A DNA stretch of 7,339 nt from the NCBI GenBank assembly GCA_002825515.1, contig PJET01000203.1, forward strand, positions 1-7,339, read 5' to 3'. The DNA is from Candidatus Thorarchaeota archaeon MP11T_1 (GTDB lineage: Archaea; Asgardarchaeota; Thorarchaeia; Thorarchaeales; Thorarchaeaceae). Shown piece after piece: positions 1 to 7,339 of the stretch (positions are counted from its first letter, which is position 1; every line of letters starts with the position of its first letter). The notes beneath the pieces were generated by a model, which had not been told where the DNA came from, searched no databases, and saw nothing but the letters and a program-made list of their open reading frames with translations. Position numbers and translations under genes: made by a program.

Positions 1-186
1 ACCCTGAGCCCCATACTCAAGTTGTTTCATACCTATTTCGATGCACTTGTGTGTCTTAATATGCGGACGAAGATCTACACCGTTATACTCCGCTTTCTCC
101 GCCATACTTTTGAGATTGTTCTCCAACCGCTCCAGATCGACCAGGAGTGCTGGTGTCATAAGATCACTCGTTTGTAATTTCCTCAT
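1..186 (-). CDS. Fold-type III PLP enzyme, D-threonine aldolase / D-serine dehydratase family (N-terminal 62 residues; continues past the left edge)
   Basis: Read on the minus strand from the ATG at 186, the frame stays open to the edge. Residues 11-18 (TPALLVDL) and 40-48 (RPHIKTHKC) are the two N-terminal signatures of the alanine-racemase-fold family that holds D-threonine aldolase, eukaryotic-type D-serine dehydratase (DSD1) and related D-amino-acid lyases. In that family the first lysine of KTHK, here Lys44, forms the Schiff base with pyridoxal phosphate. The enzyme is expected to be cytosolic and to cleave or dehydrate a beta-hydroxy D-amino acid; which substrate cannot be told from the N-terminus. 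The start is supported by a GGAG 11 bases upstream and by the usual short distance from the start to the TPA motif, although the frame remains open further upstream. It diverges from the DinB-type gene across about 106 bases. Confidence 0.88.
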   Translation of the reverse strand, partial: MRKLQTSDLMTPALLVDLERLENNLKSMAEKAEYNGVDLRPHIKTHKCIEIGMKQLEYGAQG

Positions 187-292
187 TGCGTAGATGGCTC
201 CTTTGACTTTGTCATGCAATCTCCAATAATCTAGTTTGGACCGAGCGAAACAATTTTGAGAGACTTGACTACTAAATTGATTGGTTTTGGAA

Positions 293-793
293 ATGGATAC
301 CATTCCTTCAGTCCTACTGCATATGCTCGAACATGAGAGTTCGCAGGCGAGATTTGTACTTGCATCTGTGAAAGATGTCGATATGCAATTTACTCCAATG
401 GATTCGCTTCGTACACTCGATGATCTGGCTAATCACCTTGCTCTATCTCCGTTGATTGACTTTTATTGCTATACAAAGAAATTCCAGGAGGTTGAACAGA
501 TCCAAGAGATGGAACAGCAATTGAAAAGTGACAATATTGAGGGTATGCTAAAAGTCTTTGACAAAGGAATTGGAATTATCAAAGAGCACATATCTGCATT
601 ATCAAACGAGCAGGCTCTCGAAGAGAATCTGAAGGCAGTCTATGAACAAGGCCCTGATAGGAATTGGGCTCATTACCTGCCCGAGATTACAACACATTTG
701 GCGATGCATAAGATGCAGCTGTGGATGTATCTAAAACTTGCAGGTGCTCCTGTGAGTATGTGGACGTACTACGGTGTTCCTAGAAACGAATGA
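293..793 (+). CDS. DinB-fold putative metal-dependent protein (166 residues)
   Basis: This is a helical protein of the size and layout of the DinB/YfiT four-helix-bundle superfamily. Three histidines are placed as in that family: His48 in the second helix (DLANHLA) and His135 and His139 in an HxxxH of the last helix (THLAMHK), a likely divalent-metal site. The C-terminal run AGAPVSMWTYYG after the last helix is also typical. Family members include thiol-dependent transferases using mycothiol or bacillithiol and many proteins of unknown role, so no reaction is assigned. The ATG at 293 is preferred because it gives the usual distance to the first helix; an in-frame TTG at 281 would add four residues, and neither has a clear ribosome binding site. 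The stop lies six bases from the stop of the convergent radical SAM gene, leaving no room for separate terminators. Confidence 0.82.
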   Translation: MDTIPSVLLHMLEHESSQARFVLASVKDVDMQFTPMDSLRTLDDLANHLALSPLIDFYCYTKKFQEVEQIQEMEQQLKSDNIEGMLKVFDKGIGIIKEHISALSNEQALEENLKAVYEQGPDRNWAHYLPEITTHLAMHKMQLWMYLKLAGAPVSMWTYYGVPRNE

Positions 794-799
794 GTGTGT

Positions 800-2239
800 T
801 CAAGTAATTCCATGCTGATCTCCACGAATTCTTCTTCGTAGATTCAAACGAACCTCATCGATCTTCTCAGCCATTCTACTCTTCTTAGGCCAGTATTCCT
901 TGATTTCATCAAATCCGTGGACATCCCAATATAGTGGGCAAGCACCATAGCAATAATCAAAGTGCTCGCAAGCCTTGCAACCTTCAGGTGCAAAATCCTT
1001 TGCTCTCCAAAACTGAGATGCTCGATTGTACCATACTTGTTCGAAACTCTCAGTAAGGAGGTTGCCAACAGGTTCACTAAAACTTGAACATGGCAGTACG
1101 CCTCCCTCTGCATCAACCGAGAGCAGACCGTCGCAACAAGCACAGCTTTTTGCCCCAAGTCCATGTGCTATTGGGTTGAACAAACAGACTGGTGTTGGTG
1201 CATACCACACAAATTGTATACCTCTTTTGTTCGCTCGCCTCTTAACACGTTTCACTATATCTTTGATTTCAGCATATTTGACTTGGAGCTCATCTCTGAG
1301 TTTGGCTGCTGTACCTGTGTATATCACCATATTCATACTAAAGTATGTGAGTTTTAATTCATCAGCATGGAAGTCTACGAGCTCTTCTAGTTTGTCAAGA
1401 TTAGGGCGACATATGGTGGTATTGCAATGTGTATAGATGTCAGTTTCTTGAAGGTTTTTAATCCCCCTAACAGTCCTCTCGAAAGCACCGGGTATTCCAA
1501 CGATGTAATCATGCGTAGCAGCATCAGGTCCTTCAATAGAAACTTGAGCACTGTTTAATCCAGCTTTTACCAGTTTCTGTACATACTCTTTATCGTGGCA
1601 ACGAATTCCATTCGTGATTAGATTTACTCTTAGTCCTCTCTTTCGTGCATATGATATTAGTTCAAAGATGTCCTCACGTAGTGTTGGTTCTCCACCTGTG
1701 AAAGAAAGACTAGGAACATGTGCATCATCCACGATGATGTCAATGACACGCTTGACCTCTTCCGTTGTCATCTCACCAGACTCTCTAAATGGAGAATATG
1801 CATAGCAGAACCGACACTTGTTGTTGCACCTATAAGTAAGGGCAATCTCACTTAATACAGGATACTTAATTTCACCTTCTCCAAATGGTACAATCTTAGT
1901 AGTTTTGTAGCTGTAGATATTTTGGTTTCCAATGGTCATGTTTCGAAGGTCATCAACAAAAGCCGCCAAGTCGTTTATTACAACCTGCCTTTCTCCACCC
2001 GCTTTAACAAAGAAGTTAATGATGTCCTCTAAAGATTCAGTTTCAAGGAGCTTTCTGAGCATCCACATACCAGTTTCATTGAGATGCATCGTTTTGTTAG
2101 GTCTCAAGATTAGCAGTTTGTCTTCTGGTCTAACAAAGAAAAAGTCCCTTACCTCATCTATGAATGCTGGTATCCATTGAAGGTCTTCCAATGTGTAGTT
2201 GTAATGTGGAATTGAACGAAACGAGGTCATTGTCTTCAT
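800..2239 (-). CDS. Radical SAM/SPASM-domain enzyme with PqqD-like N-terminal region (479 residues)
   Basis: Residues about 33-100 resemble a PqqD-like domain, the fold of the RiPP recognition element (VRPEDKLLIL, then an N-E-T-G-x-x-x-L-x-x-L helix). The radical SAM core follows, with the [4Fe-4S] motif CNNKCRFC (Cys138, Cys142, Cys145) and the SAM-contacting GGEP of SFTGGEPTLR. The C-terminus is a SPASM domain for auxiliary Fe-S clusters: a cysteine cluster at 366-369, Cys384 in GGVLPC, then the canonical C-x2-C-x5-C-x3-C at 421, 424, 430 and 434. Relatives include PqqE, AhbC/AhbD-type heme enzymes, NirJ and peptide-modifying maturases; the substrate here is unknown and no short precursor-peptide gene was found nearby. 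The enzyme is expected to be cytosolic and oxygen-sensitive. The frame is open to 2374, but ATG 2239 has GGTGA just ahead, and longer starts would overlap the divergent gene. Confidence 0.9.
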   Translation of the reverse strand: MKTMTSFRSIPHYNYTLEDLQWIPAFIDEVRDFFFVRPEDKLLILRPNKTMHLNETGMWMLRKLLETESLEDIINFFVKAGGERQVVINDLAAFVDDLRNMTIGNQNIYSYKTTKIVPFGEGEIKYPVLSEIALTYRCNNKCRFCYAYSPFRESGEMTTEEVKRVIDIIVDDAHVPSLSFTGGEPTLREDIFELISYARKRGLRVNLITNGIRCHDKEYVQKLVKAGLNSAQVSIEGPDAATHDYIVGIPGAFERTVRGIKNLQETDIYTHCNTTICRPNLDKLEELVDFHADELKLTYFSMNMVIYTGTAAKLRDELQVKYAEIKDIVKRVKRRANKRGIQFVWYAPTPVCLFNPIAHGLGAKSCACCDGLLSVDAEGGVLPCSSFSEPVGNLLTESFEQVWYNRASQFWRAKDFAPEGCKACEHFDYCYGACPLYWDVHGFDEIKEYWPKKSRMAEKIDEVRLNLRRRIRGDQHGIT

Positions 2240-2241
2240 GG

Positions 2242-2246
2242 TCACC
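2242..2246 (-). promoter_or_regulatory. Ribosome binding site of the radical SAM gene
   Basis: On the minus strand GGTGA stands two bases before the ATG at 2239. This matches the GGTGA part of the archaeal Shine-Dalgarno sequence GGAGGTGATC at the close spacing often seen in archaea. It favours 2239 over the ATG at 2254, which has no such site, and over the GTG-, TTG- or ATG-type starts further out. Confidence 0.5.
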
Positions 2247-2334
2247 CTATTCATCTTAAGGGTTAGGATAGAAGATTTCCAAAAAATGAAAGGCTTATCA
2301 GTCCCTAATCTTGTGATAAAAATAACATAGTCAT
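2247..2334. promoter_or_regulatory. Divergent promoter region between the radical SAM gene and the 131-residue protein gene
   Basis: This short A/T-rich gap must hold the promoters of two divergent genes. The stretch around 2314-2326 (gataaaaataac) is the most TATA-like element and could serve either strand; read on the minus strand it would give a leader of roughly 55 bases for the radical SAM gene. A second candidate for the plus strand is cttatca at 2294-2300. No operator-like inverted repeat was recognised. The placement is a guess from base composition. Confidence 0.3.
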
Positions 2335-2338
2335 GGAG
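2335..2338 (+). promoter_or_regulatory. Ribosome binding site deciding the start of the 131-residue protein
   Basis: GGAG lies eight bases before the ATG at 2347. It overlaps an in-frame GTG at 2338, which makes that GTG an unlikely start because it would have no ribosome binding site of its own. Confidence 0.6.
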
Positions 2339-2346
2339 TGTGTTCA

Positions 2347-2742
2347 ATGAGCACAAATGAGATAAAATTACCATATGGCACGATCACAAAGAAGAAACTT
2401 ATCATGCACTTCAGTGCTTACGATATTGACCTGCCAATCATTGCTGCTGGCATTCGAGAGAGAATGGATGTCTTTCGTGAACTTGATGTCGAGTTCGCTG
2501 GTTTTGGTACAGAAGTACCTGCAAACATGAGTGAACAGACTCCTGCAATCGTGAAATGTTTCTTTGAGTATGTCGGGAAAGATGCGGACGCAGGTGTCAC
2601 ATTAAAGCGAGTCTATCACCTTGTTTGGGGTGGCATGATAGCTGAGTTTCCTGATCTTGTTGAGTGGGCAGCTGCAAAAGCTGACCTATCAAATCTCACC
2701 ATTGCACAAGCTGATGTTCTTAGAGCCCAAAGAGGCGACTAA
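2347..2742 (+). CDS. Unrecognised 131-residue protein
   Basis: I do not recognise a family. The product is soluble-looking, with no signal peptide or membrane segment. The N-terminal part has a basic patch (TKKKL, residues about 14-18) followed by alternating hydrophobic and charged residues that suggest an alpha/beta fold; a helical, Ala-rich acidic part lies near the C-terminus (EWAAAKADL). There is one cysteine (in VKCFF) and no metal-binding or catalytic motif. Coding is supported by a good ribosome binding site, the full-length open frame and its fit between flanking genes. It is the first gene of the plus-strand set, 50 bases ahead of the large membrane protein, so it may share a transcript with it. 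It diverges from the radical SAM gene. Confidence 0.72.
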   Translation: MSTNEIKLPYGTITKKKLIMHFSAYDIDLPIIAAGIRERMDVFRELDVEFAGFGTEVPANMSEQTPAIVKCFFEYVGKDADAGVTLKRVYHLVWGGMIAEFPDLVEWAAAKADLSNLTIAQADVLRAQRGD

Positions 2743-2780
2743 ACTCATCAATAAACATGTGTCTGGAGAGGATTTAGCTA

Positions 2781-2785
2781 GAGGT
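2781..2785 (+). promoter_or_regulatory. Ribosome binding site supporting the GTG start of the membrane protein
   Basis: GAGGT is seven bases before the GTG at 2793. The start is further supported because translation from it immediately yields a standard signal peptide. Confidence 0.65.
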
Positions 2786-2792
2786 TAATGAA

Positions 2793-4925
2793 GTGAAGAG
2801 AAGCTTGGTAAACGCATTACTAATTGGATTACTTGTACTTTCTATGATTCAGCCCCAATCTCCTAGCCATGCAAGTAGTATACCAAGCGCCAATCCTAAT
2901 CTAGATAGTGTGAATGTTGATGTTGTTGTCATGCCCAATGGCAGAATAAATGTCACATACTGGATGACTTTCACTGCAGCGGAAGGAGGTCTAGGGGGAT
3001 TCAATCTAGAAGGAATTCAAGAATCTACGATACGTGACAGTAGTCGTGCATATGTTGAATGGGGTGGCAGTCGGTATAGTCTTCTAGTTACTACTCTTCC
3101 GAGTGGTTATGGCCTAGACTGGGTTCCTCGAACCCCAGAAGCACAACAAGTTCTTGTTGTTTTTGGTTACTTCAGTACAAACCGTGTTATTGAGCAAACA
3201 ACATCACCTACCTATGGCGACCTTGGAGTTTTCAATTGGGCACCAGTTCAATGGGAAATACCAATAGACTATGAAGCAGTACAGGTTATCTATCCCATCG
3301 AAATGAATACCTCTTGGATTGAACCAACTCATGGAGTTACACCAGAGGGAGCTGAATATGCAGGCTATGTTGAAGATGCTGATCAAGGATTGTGGCAGGG
3401 TGCTTTCCAGAGTGCGTTCGACGAAGACAATCTTCTCGCATATCCTTATGATGCTGGAGCAGATCCACGCTATTTCACAGTAAGTCTTGGTCACTCAAAT
3501 ATAGATGCATATGGTCACTTCAGGGTTTTTCACTATACTAACTGGAGCTTCTATGAACCATATCTTGAGGATGGAGCTCTTGGTATTGATTATACACCTA
3601 TAATTAATGCCCAAGCAAACACTCAATTCAGCTTGCAGCTTGCCGTCTTTAATTACGGTGATGCAGATTTAGAAGATGTAGCAATAACAATGTCACTTCC
3701 TGAAAATCTCACGCTTACATCCGGATCAGTGACGACATCTATTGGAGACCTCTCTGGTGGAGAAACATGGTTTGAATCATACACTCTAATTCCTGCAAAT
3801 GTACCTGCAATTCTGACGATCGCGTTTCAAGTCAGTGCGTCAAATCTGAACTCTTCAGATTGGCAATCCTTTACAGTTGATGTATATGTTCAGGAGTATA
3901 TCCCTCCACTGATTCCACCGAATTTATTGTTTGGTGGAGCTGCTATCTTTGTGTCGATTGGATTCATCTTTTATGGATATAGACGAGTTACCCGTAGGTA
4001 TGGTGCAAAATGGGAGGCTGATGACACAACCTATGTCTATGAGAGTCCTGAGATAGCAATACAGACATTCGGAGAACCAGGAACTGTTGCAGATTTGGAC
4101 CCTATTGAATCCGCCTTCTTCATCAACACAACAAGGCAGAAACTCGTTTCAATGATACTTATGTCCTGTGTCAAAAAAGGAGCAGTTCGAGTACTATCAA
4201 CTGATCCGCTTAAGCTCTCTGTGACAGGTCTTCAATTCCAAGACTTGACTTATTACGAGGAACTTTTTGTCGCTGCAATAGTGGATGACGAACTAGATTC
4301 AGATAAGATTGATGATATGCTTGAAGAATTAGCTGAGCAGGTACAAGAGAAAGCCTGGAGTGCAGATTTTGAGGCGACGAAAGCCAAGCATGATGAAATG
4401 GTTGATGGCGCTTGGGAGGAATTGGAGTCGTATCCCACCTTAGATGGAAGGATGGATTATTACTTTAACCGTCAATTTCATGGTGGTGGTTGGGCATGGT
4501 ATTGGATATACATGCATCCGCGTCACGACCACATTAGAGATGTTTTTATAAAACCAGGACCTTCGATTTCTCCTCCACAAGTTCCTGATTGGTTCTCTCA
4601 GCTCTCGGAAGTAACTGGTAATGCAGTTAGTGGAGTCGGTCGAGTGGTTGGTGATGTGGCTGCAACCACTGGTCAAATAATGAACAATGTTGCCAATACT
4701 ATCGGTAGCGTTGTACAAGGAGTAGGCGACATTATCACAGCCCCCCTAAAACCTCTTATTGAAAGCACAAGTAGATGTGTGTCCCACGATGCTTGCCATA
4801 GTGCTTGTGTATCTCACGATGCATGTCATAGTGCTTGTCACAGTGCCTGCCATAGTGCCTGCGTATGTCATAGTGCCTGTCACAGCGCTTGCCATAGCGC
4901 CTGTGTATCTGGAGGTTTCAGGTAA
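2793..4925 (+). CDS. Exported single-pass membrane protein, DUF2207-like, with Cys/His repeat tail (710 residues)
   Basis: The N-terminus is a signal peptide (MKRS followed by a hydrophobic core; plausible cleavage after SHA, residue 27). Residues about 35-180 resemble the beta-rich N-terminal part of DUF2207 proteins, and 271-370 look like a CARDB/DUF11-type beta-sandwich. Five N-x-S/T sequons lie in this outer part. A membrane helix spans about 378-396 and is followed by four arginines (397, 398, 401, 402), which puts the rest in the cytoplasm. Residues about 400-550 resemble the DUF2207 C-terminal region (DLDPIESAFF, SCVKKGAVRV). Then come a Trp/His-rich stretch (563-580), a Gly/Val segment with 11-residue periodicity (610-642) and a tail of nine His-x-Ala-Cys units (662-704). 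The biochemical role is unknown. It is probably in one operon with the phosphoesterase that follows directly. The GTG start has a good ribosome binding site. Confidence 0.88.
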   Translation: MKRSLVNALLIGLLVLSMIQPQSPSHASSIPSANPNLDSVNVDVVVMPNGRINVTYWMTFTAAEGGLGGFNLEGIQESTIRDSSRAYVEWGGSRYSLLVTTLPSGYGLDWVPRTPEAQQVLVVFGYFSTNRVIEQTTSPTYGDLGVFNWAPVQWEIPIDYEAVQVIYPIEMNTSWIEPTHGVTPEGAEYAGYVEDADQGLWQGAFQSAFDEDNLLAYPYDAGADPRYFTVSLGHSNIDAYGHFRVFHYTNWSFYEPYLEDGALGIDYTPIINAQANTQFSLQLAVFNYGDADLEDVAITMSLPENLTLTSGSVTTSIGDLSGGETWFESYTLIPANVPAILTIAFQVSASNLNSSDWQSFTVDVYVQEYIPPLIPPNLLFGGAAIFVSIGFIFYGYRRVTRRYGAKWEADDTTYVYESPEIAIQTFGEPGTVADLDPIESAFFINTTRQKLVSMILMSCVKKGAVRVLSTDPLKLSVTGLQFQDLTYYEELFVAAIVDDELDSDKIDDMLEELAEQVQEKAWSADFEATKAKHDEMVDGAWEELESYPTLDGRMDYYFNRQFHGGGWAWYWIYMHPRHDHIRDVFIKPGPSISPPQVPDWFSQLSEVTGNAVSGVGRVVGDVAATTGQIMNNVANTIGSVVQGVGDIITAPLKPLIESTSRCVSHDACHSACVSHDACHSACHSACHSACVCHSACHSACHSACVSGGFR
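4620..4718 (+). repeat. Three 11-residue units within the membrane protein (residues 610-642)
   Basis: The segment can be laid out as NAVSGVGRVVG, DVAATTGQIMN and NVANTIGSVVQ. Glycine recurs at 616, 627 and 638, a hydrophobic pair at 618-619, 629-630 and 640-641, and valine at 622, 633 and, in a partial fourth unit, 644. An 11-residue period corresponds to three helical turns and is the pattern of membrane-binding amphipathic helices in apolipoproteins, perilipins and synucleins. The repetition is visible at protein level only; the DNA units are diverged. Confidence 0.5.
4776..4904 (+). repeat. Tandem Cys/His repeat region encoding nine H-x-A-C units
   Basis: The 12-base unit coding His-Ser-Ala-Cys occurs seven times (at 4797, 4827, 4839, 4851, 4869, 4881 and 4893), and a His-Asp-Ala-Cys version occurs twice (4785 and 4815). 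A 30-base block coding VSHDACHSAC at 4779-4808 is repeated at 4809-4838 with four differences, all silent. The region encodes 11 Cys and 9 His, mostly with C-x3-C spacing. It has no stop or frame break, so it is an in-frame part of the membrane protein gene. Confidence 0.93.
4911..4916 (+). promoter_or_regulatory. Ribosome binding site of the phosphoesterase inside the end of the membrane protein gene
   Basis: GGAGGT forms the Gly-Gly codons (residues 707-708) at the C-terminus of the membrane protein and lies nine bases before the TTG at 4926. The stop codon of the first gene directly abuts this TTG, so a terminating ribosome sits on the start site. This makes translational coupling likely. 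Confidence 0.75.
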
Positions 4926-5681
4926 TTGGTAGAACCATTCGCTACGATTTTCCATGTTAGTGATATTCACATCGGTGAAAGTGGAGTAATGGTAAAGGAT
5001 CTCGAGAAAGTTATCAATTCAATCGAAGAAACAGCTACAAATTCTCCATCTCCCTTGCTATTAGTGACTGGAGATTTAACCACTGAAGGTCTCAGAGAGG
5101 AGTATGAAGGAGCTGCATCTGTTTTGAATGAGGTCCGCATTCCTAGGGTGATAATCCCAGGAAATCATGATGAGCGAAATTATGGTTCCGTTATTTTTGA
5201 AGAGTTTTTTGGAGATCGTTTCAAAACATATGAGTCTGAGCATCTAGCAATTTTTGCTGCTGATAGCGCTGAACCAGATAATGATGCAGGCCATGTTGGT
5301 AGAGTAAAGTATAACGAGATTAGGGACTTCTTCAACAAGGCAAAAAATAAGGTTAAGGTATTTGCTCTTCATCATCATCTTATTGCAGTTCCACATACTG
5401 GGAGAGAACACAATGTTGTTGAAGATGCAGGGGATGTTCTTGGAGTTCTAAACAATTCAGGTTGCTCGTTGGTACTTAATGGTCACCGTCATGTTCCTTG
5501 GATGTGGCAACTAGGTGACATGGTTCTTTATAATACTGGAACATTACTTTCTCGACGAGTTCGTGGAGCAATGACTCAATTACACACAGAGATCTCTATT
5601 GCTGAAGATCATGTAAAATTTATACTACGCTACAAAGATGGTAGTGAGCGATTATTTACGCAATCCCGGTTGCGAATATAA
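4926..5681 (+). CDS. Calcineurin-like metallophosphoesterase (251 residues)
   Basis: All blocks of the two-metal calcineurin-like phosphoesterase fold are present in order: D-x-H (Asp13, His15 in VSDIHIG), GD (Asp50 in VTGDLT), GNHD (Asn80, His81, Asp82), the histidine block ALHHH (149-151) and GHRH (His187, His189). The arrangement is closest to the CpdA/Rv0805-like class III enzymes, which hydrolyse cyclic nucleotides, phosphodiesters or phosphomonoesters; the substrate is not predictable from sequence alone. There is no signal peptide, so it should act in the cytoplasm, on the same side as the C-terminal tail of the preceding membrane protein. The TTG start directly follows the previous stop and has a strong ribosome binding site; no ATG occurs before the D-x-H motif, so a start this early is required. 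It is convergent with the next gene, 27 bases apart. Confidence 0.92.
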   Translation: MVEPFATIFHVSDIHIGESGVMVKDLEKVINSIEETATNSPSPLLLVTGDLTTEGLREEYEGAASVLNEVRIPRVIIPGNHDERNYGSVIFEEFFGDRFKTYESEHLAIFAADSAEPDNDAGHVGRVKYNEIRDFFNKAKNKVKVFALHHHLIAVPHTGREHNVVEDAGDVLGVLNNSGCSLVLNGHRHVPWMWQLGDMVLYNTGTLLSRRVRGAMTQLHTEISIAEDHVKFILRYKDGSERLFTQSRLRI

Positions 5682-5708
5682 TATCCTGAAGTAAGTAAAT
5701 ATGGTTCA

Positions 5709-6062
5709 CTAATACTCGGGAAAGAACCAAACGATGTCAACCGAGGTCACATTTGATAAGGATACTATTGAACTTACAACTCCTCGAACAACAACAACTG
5801 AATTCAATGTTGATGCACCAGTCCATTCGATGAGAACGAAATTTGGTCCATCCGATATTGTGATTATATTCCCAACACGAAGAGTTACCTCTCCCTTTAC
5901 AGCAACAGCCGTACCTATTGAAACTAGTCCGTCATTGATGTCATTTATACTTGTAAGCCCAATTAATCCATCGTGCCATGCGATAACACCTACTGTGACA
6001 ATAACAAGCACAAGTAGGACCAATGCTATCTTGGCAACAGGTCTTCCTTTCTTTTTTGGCAT
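5709..6062 (-). CDS. Small membrane-anchored or exported protein with an OB-like beta domain (117 residues)
   Basis: The N-terminus is basic (MPKKKGRPVAK) and is followed by a hydrophobic helix at residues about 12-29, so the rest faces outside the membrane. No clear cleavage site follows the helix, so an uncleaved anchor is as likely as secretion. Residues about 45-115 alternate in a five-strand-like pattern (VAVKGEVTL, ITISDG, VVVRGVVSS, SVDIVWFF) that resembles small OB-fold domains; this is an impression of pattern, not a family match. There is no cysteine and no catalytic motif; one N-x-T sequon lies in the outer domain (SNVTS). The ATG at 6062 has GGTGG six bases upstream (6069-6073). 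The opposite strand also has an open frame here (5734-6090), but it lacks the signal, composition and ribosome binding site of a real gene. Function unknown. Confidence 0.75.
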   Translation of the reverse strand: MPKKKGRPVAKIALVLLVLVIVTVGVIAWHDGLIGLTSINDINDGLVSIGTAVAVKGEVTLRVGNIITISDGPNFVLIEWTGASTLNSVVVVRGVVSSIVSLSNVTSVDIVWFFPEY

Positions 6063-6073
6063 GCTATTCCACC

Positions 6074-6138
6074 AGATATACTACGCATAATCAAACTAAA
6101 GAGTATGACGGCTTAAAGAGGAAATACTTTAGGTTGGC
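6074..6138. promoter_or_regulatory. Divergent promoter region between the OB-like protein and metallopeptidase genes
   Basis: The gap between two divergent starts contains a nearly symmetric cttaaag at 6112-6118 (ctttaag on the minus strand). It sits about 40 bases before the plus-strand ATG at 6154 and about 50 before the minus-strand ATG at 6062, and could act as a TATA element in either direction. A second plus-strand candidate is tacttta at 6125-6131, which would give an almost leaderless transcript. Neither is a strong match to the archaeal consensus. Confidence 0.28.
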
Positions 6139-6153
6139 TTGTTATTCCCAGAA

Positions 6154-7339
6154 ATGGTTTCAATGAATGTATCAGAGAGATTTGTGACGATTGCTGGTGA
6201 AATTGGTGCGTTCACAGAAAGATTGACTGGTGTAAGTGTAGTTGATGCATATTTTGGTCCTAAAGAGCTAGATCCGAAAAAGATGAATGGAGAAAAATCT
6301 GCATCCGACCTTACCCATGAAATCCATGTTGTGTTTGATGCTGTGCGAGATGAGATTGAAGACCCACTACGTCTTGAATACATGATGGGTGAGTTGCATT
6401 CATTAAACATGGTTATTGATTGGTTGGATGGAACGGAGCTTTCTTACTCTGAACTTGTGGAAGGACTTTTTCATATTCCAATGAAGAAGTTCACTGAGGT
6501 TGAGATTGACAAGAGTATAGAGATTGTTAATGAGTTACTTGATGGTTTCCCTGGTGATGATCTTCACGACAAGATATCTAGATTTGGAAAAGAAGGTGAA
6601 ATTACTGGCGATGCCCTTCAGAGTCTACTTGAAAATGATTTGCAGCAACGTGCACTAGAAATAGGTCAAGAGTTCCGGGATAGAATTTTCACACTCATAG
6701 GTGCATCTGTACCTGACAAGGGTGTCCAATATGAAGCTGTCAGGAATCAGCCTTGGGGAGGGTATAATTGGTATCTTGGTGAATTCAAATCTTTGAATCA
6801 ATTCAATATAGACCGGAAGTTCAATAGAGATACCTTGCAGTCAACGATCTATCACGAGTATGAACATCATATTTCAAACCTATGGCGAGAGAAAGCATAT
6901 CTTAATACTGGTAATCTTGAGTTGTCTATTGTTCTCCTTCATACTGGTAGATGCGTCATCTCAGAAGGGACTGCTGATACTGCGAAAGAATTCCTTGGAG
7001 TTTCTGATGATGATCCTAGAATGATCGTATTGAGTGCACTGTATCCCCTCAGAAGGATGACTCAAATTAACGCAGCAATCCTTCTAAATGACGAAAGAAA
7101 ATCAGTGGAAGAAGCAATAGATTACCTACAATATAGAGGATATAGAACTCTAGAATCTGCAGAAGGGTCGATAGATTTCATTTCTCCAACAACCAAGGAC
7201 GGTACAATTAACTTCTTCGCACCCTACATATTCACTTACTTCATTGGACGTACAAATTATGTTCATCCTACTTATCTCAAGGCTGTGGAGAAGGACCTAC
7301 TCCCCGAATTCTTCAAAACTGTCTACATGAATCCTTATT
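6154..7339 (+). CDS. HExxH zinc metallopeptidase, DUF885/gluzincin-like (first 395 residues; continues past the right edge)
   Basis: The frame is open from a stop at 6130 to the window edge. It carries HEYEH at residues 234-238, the HExxH zinc site with Glu235 as the expected catalytic base, and SEGTAD with Glu271 as the probable third zinc ligand 33 residues later, which is the gluzincin arrangement. Ahead of it, QPWGGYNWYLG (199-209) and the N-x-D block resemble the substrate-cleft region of DUF885-like and M3/M32-like peptidases. There is no signal peptide, so a cytosolic oligopeptidase or carboxypeptidase is the likely role. The remaining length is probably short if it matches family size. 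ATG 6154 is chosen; ATG 6163 and TTG 6139 are alternatives, and no good ribosome binding site precedes any of them, so a short-leader or leaderless mRNA is possible. Confidence 0.87.
   Translation, partial: MVSMNVSERFVTIAGEIGAFTERLTGVSVVDAYFGPKELDPKKMNGEKSASDLTHEIHVVFDAVRDEIEDPLRLEYMMGELHSLNMVIDWLDGTELSYSELVEGLFHIPMKKFTEVEIDKSIEIVNELLDGFPGDDLHDKISRFGKEGEITGDALQSLLENDLQQRALEIGQEFRDRIFTLIGASVPDKGVQYEAVRNQPWGGYNWYLGEFKSLNQFNIDRKFNRDTLQSTIYHEYEHHISNLWREKAYLNTGNLELSIVLLHTGRCVISEGTADTAKEFLGVSDDDPRMIVLSALYPLRRMTQINAAILLNDERKSVEEAIDYLQYRGYRTLESAEGSIDFISPTTKDGTINFFAPYIFTYFIGRTNYVHPTYLKAVEKDLLPEFFKTVYMNPY

Follow-up and report, generated by a model that had tools for sequence, protein, structure and literature searches.

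What is the role of a membrane protein that ends in a dense array of cysteines and histidines? This question is raised by a 7,339-nucleotide stretch of DNA (the window) from Candidatus Thorarchaeota archaeon MP11T_1 (assembly GCA_002825515.1, contig PJET01000203.1, positions 1 to 7,339, forward strand). A preliminary description of this DNA rightly recognized a membrane protein with a predicted cytoplasmic tail of H-x-A-C units. It overlooked the adjoining gene, which codes for a radical SAM/SPASM enzyme with a PqqD-like domain. The pairing of tail and enzyme is well supported. From the sequences, the tail is probably a repeat substrate of the neighboring enzyme, carried by a protein that remains membrane-bound. 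The tail-bearing protein is organized as follows.

2793..4925, + strand: tail-bearing membrane protein, 710 residues, stop codon included in the coordinates (open reading frame, hydrophobic segments, 55 related loci)
2889..3902, + strand: predicted extracytoplasmic domain, residues 33–370, with an Ost1/ribophorin-I-like beta fold and an immunoglobulin-like domain (262–370)
3909..3980, + strand: transmembrane helix, residues 373–396 by hydropathy; the structure model puts the helix at 376–401
3981..4775, + strand: predicted cytoplasmic domain and linker, residues 397–661 (topology, structure model)
4776..4922, + strand: Cys/His repeat tail, residues 662–710, with seven HSAC and two HDAC units and the end CVSGGFR

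The product of this open reading frame (ORF) terminates in RCVSHDACHSACVSHDACHSACHSACHSACVCHSACHSACHSACVSGGFR. Its nine H[SD]AC units hold 11 Cys and nine His, with Cys–Cys spacings of, in order, 6, 4, 6, 4, 4, 4, 2, 4, 4 and 4; the sole Cys outside the tail is residue 459. The counts in the preliminary description (11 Cys and 9 His in 43 residues, in HSAC and HDAC units) were exact on recount, as was its span of 4776..4904, which runs from the start of the first tail Cys codon to the end of the last. None of 5000 shuffled versions of the protein reached 20 Cys plus His in 43 residues, the maximum being 10. There are two hydrophobic segments, a signal-like one at the N-terminus (residues 1–19) and a single later one (373–396), which is directly followed by the basic stretch GYRRVTRRYGAK. 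Because a signal-like N-terminus and one further hydrophobic segment precede these basic residues, the tail is predicted to face the cytoplasm. The structure model of the protein reaches a predicted local distance difference test score of about 75–89 over residues 431–540 and is low beyond residue 547.

The tail repeats are maintained at the protein level, as judged from codon usage. Tandem Repeats Finder detects imperfect tandem DNA repeats at this position. Among 21 Thorarchaeal-type genes (the window and loci L001–L020), all 21 tail DNA sequences are distinct, and variation is purely synonymous in 45 of the 49 tail codon columns, with an amino acid change in four. Pairwise differences per codon amount to 0.56 synonymous and 0.013 nonsynonymous in the tail, versus 0.39 and 0.38 in the 71 codons that precede it. 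A broader survey of 101 tails (55 from the loci and the window, 46 from protein searches) defines the repeat unit as H-x-A-C, where x is Ser (596 cases), Asp (210), then Gly, Asn, Thr and others. Ala precedes Cys in 858 of 860 H-x-y-C units, the Cys spacing is four in 715 of 788 cases, and the number of HxAC units per tail ranges from 3 to 10. In an alignment of 25 of the 56 tail proteins (A2), tail columns are invariant between archaeal and bacterial proteins with bodies that are only about 24–30% identical.

The occurrence of such tails was examined by searching 84,980 species genomes with residues 1–636, that is, with the tail excluded. This search returned 55 related loci, 20 of them from Asgard archaea (19 labeled Thorarchaeota, one Lokiarchaeota) and 35 from bacteria. 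The bacterial loci belong to Planctomycetota, Elusimicrobiota, Omnitrophota, Bacillota, Spirochaetota, Pseudomonadota, Nitrospirota, Bacteroidota, Calditrichota, Hydrogenedentota, Lentisphaerota and Auribacterota, with four loci lacking a phylum name. A tail with at least three HxAC units in one frame is present at all 55 loci, which runs against the outcomes that the preliminary description named as signs of an unstable DNA repeat (a tail confined to a single assembly, or lost or frameshifted in close relatives). The host proteins measured 510–844 residues in all 42 matches of one protein search. A search of proteins of 72–228 residues gave five matches, none clearly an intact small precursor: P0051 and P0053 are, by eye, fragments of the same tail-bearing membrane proteins, P0050 and P0052, both short pieces, come from contigs of 728 and 578 bases, and P0054 has 157 residues on a 591-base contig. 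Several other proteins or contigs (P0001, P0002, L057, L058) end just before, inside or next to the tail. Assemblies probably tend to break at the DNA repeat of the tail, so that tails would be undercounted.

The adjoining gene on the opposite strand codes for an enzyme with the following features.

800..2374, − strand: radical SAM/SPASM enzyme with N-terminal PqqD-like domain (Pfam; relatives adjoin tail genes)
1934..2167, − strand: PqqD-like domain, of the type that serves as recognition element for ribosomally synthesized and post-translationally modified peptides (RiPPs) (Pfam PqqD; structure model)
1805..1828, − strand: CxxxCxxC motif for the radical SAM cluster; C133, C137 and C140 are invariant in 50 aligned enzymes
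938..1186, − strand: SPASM region with auxiliary-cluster cysteines C347, C361, C364, C379, C416, C419, C425 and C429

The listed ORF begins at 2374, and homologues of 473–478 residues suggest a start at about 2230–2239. Three Pfam families match above their cut-offs: Radical_SAM (4.3e-29; 102.2 bits, cut-off 29.5), SPASM (2.6e-6; 28.1 bits, cut-off 21.5) and PqqD (2.5e-5; 25.0 bits, cut-off 23.4). PqqD-like domains at this position act as RiPP recognition elements. The model of this domain shows strands (29–47) followed by three helices (50–97), a winged-helix-like order of elements. Among relatives, the PqqD match is above the cut-off for L060 and L062, just below it for L047, and not listed for L022 and L061. 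In alignment A1, which holds 50 of the 53 enzyme ORFs (the other three are truncated), seven of the SPASM cysteines are invariant and C364 is conserved at 90% or more. In a larger set of 70 enzymes used for a tree, the CxxxCxxC motif is found in all 70 rows and CxxCx5CxxxC in 69. The exception is one of two tandem copies in genome G157 (L066; 2288–3712 and 3753–5156, both + strand), of which the first lacks the SPASM-end Cys motif and looks degenerate. No NCBIfam model reaches its cut-off for the window enzyme; the best models, at no more than 159 of 500 bits, describe heme-pathway and pyrroloquinoline quinone (PQQ) enzymes, with AhbD and NirJ2 as the best matches.

The enzyme gene accompanies the tail gene with few exceptions. 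A relative of the enzyme adjoins the tail gene at all 35 bacterial loci and at 18 of the 20 archaeal ones. In bacteria, it follows the tail gene immediately and in the same orientation; in archaea, the two genes are divergent. One archaeal exception (L005) begins at a contig end and has the enzyme on another contig of the same genome; at the other (L016), the tail gene is partial and immediately preceded by a run of 100 N, and the enzyme was not found in the genome. Among 195 Asgard genomes, 67 contain an enzyme match. We divided these after seeing the scores into clade A (at least 480 bits, 29 genomes) and the more distant clade B (best match 241–346 bits, 37 genomes). The HxAC pattern occurs in 31 of the 195 genomes, the close enzyme in 29, and both in 28 (Fisher p 2e-29). 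The tail-only genomes are G001, with an N gap, and G004 and G105, with contig ends. The enzyme-only genome, G116, retains just residues 18–82 of the tail protein. At this locus (L056, 1–3200), an integrase-like ORF follows the residual tail gene and the enzyme gene is intact, which looks like an insertion or a misassembly. Genome G141 (283 bits, an enzyme fragment at a contig end) was excluded; counting it as clade A would raise the enzyme-only genomes to two and change p to 3e-28. Among 199 Planctomycetota, the enzyme and an S/D-type tail are present together in 10 genomes, and neither is found alone. The tail pattern had matched 14 of these genomes; four of them (G224, G282, G298 and G384) were not counted, as they have W, K/E, F or R/A at position x and lack the enzyme. 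A reversed control pattern matched three Planctomycetota genomes (G244, G346, G374) and no Asgard genome. In 145 Omnitrophota, searched for the enzyme only, we found two strong matches and one weak match.

Clade-B enzymes are accompanied by a second type of tail. At each of the first eight clade-B loci (L059–L066), the enzyme stands beside a membrane protein that ends in ...CACACACACAGGGR or ...CACACAGCACACAGGGR. Asgard membrane proteins of the CACACACACAGGGR type also occur beside radical SAM/SPASM enzymes at L077 and L079–L081. A methyltransferase often accompanies such pairs; at three loci of this kind, a class I SAM methyltransferase gene follows the enzyme. The preliminary description had tentatively mentioned short Cys-Ala tails on other membrane proteins, and these CACACAGGGR tails on related systems bear it out. 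They contain no His, and Ala again precedes each internal Cys. The pattern CACACAGGG is present in 31 of the 195 Asgard genomes, of which 30 have the clade-B enzyme and none has an HxAC tail; a clade-B enzyme without a tail protein was found in G066, G041, G060 and G048. Tail and enzyme are at most 400 nucleotides apart in 26 of the 29 genomes entered, a count that leaves out G033 (different contigs) and G025 (tail present, enzyme missing). In the enzyme tree, which includes 19 clade-B rows from 18 of the 37 clade-B genomes and is midpoint-rooted for drawing only, all 51 HxAC enzymes form one clade (100/100) with archaeal and bacterial branches, opposite the group with Cys-Ala (CA) tails. Two enzyme clades match two tail types.

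Tail conservation, enzyme domains, gene linkage, co-occurrence and the match between clades and tails are observed and all fit an enzyme and its substrate; that the enzyme acts on the tail is inferred, and likewise the chemistry and the role in the cell. An oxygen-sensitive cytoplasmic enzyme with a recognition-element-type domain would suit a Cys-repeat tail predicted to lie in the cytoplasm, and the linkage survives changes in gene order, with one enzyme clade per tail code. In the proposed mechanism, the body of the protein would sit in the membrane with its beta-rich domain outside and the small domain and tail inside. The enzyme would bind this partner, probably via its PqqD-like domain, and, in the reducing cytoplasm, process one H-x-A-C unit after another, in much the same way as RiPP maturases treat repeat core peptides. 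The likeliest products would be thioethers or other Cys crosslinks within or between neighboring units; by analogy to SkfB and PapB, Cys thioethers would be the likeliest bond. The near-invariant Ala before Cys may serve as the acceptor or in recognition. As no leader protease was recognized nearby and the host proteins are large, the tail probably remains attached once modified. With no release step evident, the enzyme would leave a chemically hardened array of Cys and His tethered to the membrane, which might serve metal or redox chemistry. More tentatively, and with about as much doubt as conviction, we suggest that the enzyme builds a repeated, crosslinked Cys/His structure that is kept permanently. 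It would amount to a genetically encoded prosthetic array. Two clades would make it on membrane proteins of one kind, each with its own tail code (HxAC or CA), and its range would take in Asgard archaea and at least 12 bacterial phyla.

The loci contain further genes. In the window, a small protein of 134 residues lies between enzyme and tail gene:

2338..2742, + strand: small protein, 134 residues

This protein has no Pfam or NCBIfam match; BLAST finds relatives at 18 of 20 archaeal and 0 of 35 bacterial loci. Bacterial HxAC operons contain a third gene for a protein of about 320 residues with about four hydrophobic segments and no Pfam match at the cut-off (alignment A3, 11 of at least 24 sequences). 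It occurs once each in 10 of 10 tail-bearing bacterial genomes and in none of eight tail-bearing Thorarchaeota tested, and is therefore not a universal part of the system. Genome G513 has a weak enzyme match (174.8 bits), no third gene, and no HxAC tail within the 10 kb examined. No protease or exporter gene was recognized adjoining the tail and enzyme genes. Farther downstream in the window, a 400-residue protein (6139–7338, + strand) contains an HExxH-like stretch, HEYEHH, and gives a sub-cutoff match to a metalloprotease model; relatives of it occur in 14 archaeal loci besides the window.

Other roles for the tail can be weighed against modification by the enzyme. An unmodified Cys/His array could bind Zn, Cu, Fe or an Fe–S cluster while the enzyme acts elsewhere. 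The 11 Cys and nine His within 49 residues, the cytoplasmic location given by the topology, and the constant Cys spacing of four would suit such a tail. We nevertheless consider this reading unlikely, as it leaves the tight pairing with one enzyme clade unexplained, metal ligation does not require a near-invariant Ala, and the CACACACACAGGGR tail of the sister clade has no His. A known metal-binding domain family was rejected as a candidate: as the preliminary description had supposed, Pfam shows no metal-binding domain on the window protein, and no domain covers the tail even when relatives are included. Alternatively, the unmodified tail could be a docking or guide tag that recruits the enzyme, which would act on another region of the protein or on a different substrate, for instance the product of the third gene or a cofactor. 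The tail is indeed the best conserved part, and the heme-pathway and PQQ models that score best for the enzyme, far below their cut-offs, would be compatible with such a role. Docking tags, however, rarely need 3–10 identical units, and the repeat number varies freely between lineages, as it does in repeat cores, which makes this proposal quite improbable. A tail with covalent heme, as in c-type cytochromes, is suggested by the fact that each CHSACH reads C-x3-C-H and that the best matches of the enzyme, though below the cut-off, are the radical SAM heme enzymes AhbD and NirJ2. Attachment of c-type heme takes place outside the cytoplasm, on the other side from the predicted tail; moreover, the motifs overlap so that each Cys would serve two hemes, and the sister tail lacks His, so we regard this idea as very improbable. 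Finally, an unstable DNA repeat without function, to which the Tandem Repeats Finder result and the near-exact 12-nucleotide DNA repeat of another kind behind the Planctomycetota match in G298 might point, can be counted as already refuted by the scrambled synonymous codons over a constant protein sequence, the tail at 55 of 55 loci and the shuffling control.

Modification of the tail by the enzyme would place this pair near several known systems. As in RiPP pathways, the enzyme carries a PqqD-like recognition domain and its gene is linked to that of the presumed precursor; no clear case of a short precursor with a protease-removed leader was found here. HxsA carries a C-terminal His repeat. 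The His-Xaa-Ser system (HxsA, HxsB/HxsC) thus shares such a repeat and a radical SAM maturase with the present one, which differs in having H-x-A-C instead of H-x-S units and a single enzyme. Against our enzyme, the HxsC model reaches 105.6 bits, below its cut-off of 267.9 (HxsB and HxsD were not searched). PMC9062424 credits Haft and Basu with the description of the His-Xaa-Ser system. TIGR04117, a Cys-Xaa-Xaa-Xaa repeat named as a radical SAM target, shares a Cys every four residues; its model spans about 98 residues and hence describes a small protein. Among three tail proteins, it matches L037 only (12.8 of 50 bits, E 0.096), and the window protein is not listed at E ≤ 0.1. In ranthipeptide and sactipeptide systems (PapB/PapA, SkfB), the substrate is a short peptide with a cleaved leader; here, it would be the tail of a membrane protein of 500–850 residues, with H-x-A-C units and no adjoining protease or exporter gene recognized. 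According to the available text of PMC9413430, PapB links Cys to Asp in CX3D motifs six times. The CACACAGGGR systems found here share the membrane protein with a Cys-repeat tail beside a sister-clade radical SAM/SPASM enzyme and differ in the His-free Cys-Ala tail with the end CAGGGR and in having a class I SAM methyltransferase as third gene.

Likeness of the protein body to cataloged families is weak. A sequence search of solved structures gave no match to the tail protein alone (E ≤ 1) or as a profile (E ≤ 0.1). The label DUF2207-like (PF09972) in the preliminary description is only weakly borne out: the window protein has no match at E ≤ 0.01, whereas 2 of 3 and 4 of 10 bacterial relatives give ectodomain matches below the cut-off (best 20.0 bits, P0023; Pfam cut-off 24.4). 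Similarly, TIGR04222 resembles the cytoplasmic domain of relatives (25.1 bits for L022 and 25.5 for P0039, NCBIfam cut-off 43) and does not match the window protein at the limits used. A link to ovothiol was considered and dropped: a pair of DUF2207 and LemA proteins adjoins OvoA in PMC12631010, but the authors of that paper conclude that the pair has no link to 5-thiohistidine. Of 47 tail-bearing database proteins, 16 (13 of 42 and 3 of 5) carry a precomputed assignment to PF27846, a newer Pfam family; one of them is a 102-residue piece that consists mostly of tail, so part of the tail family may already have been cataloged by others. We found no description of HSAC or CACACAGGGR tails in the literature, although subscription papers lay mostly outside the search and a description may exist; among the matches listed for the text string "chsac", there were only German words and passages on other subjects.

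Short peptide products and cofactors are what radical SAM/SPASM enzymes are mainly known for. The system is probably of the radical SAM repeat-substrate kind and is unusual in that the repeat forms a permanent tail of a membrane protein. The apparent substrate is a fixed part of a large protein, written in a simple and ancient repeat code that is shared by Asgard archaea and bacteria. The matched pairs, HxAC and CACACA, represent a natural swap experiment on substrate recognition by such enzymes. Should the modification prove real, it would give a function to a widespread group of uncharacterized membrane proteins, and a Cys/His cofactor of a new type might come to light. It would then define a class of permanent, RiPP-like protein modification on membrane sensors or redox proteins.
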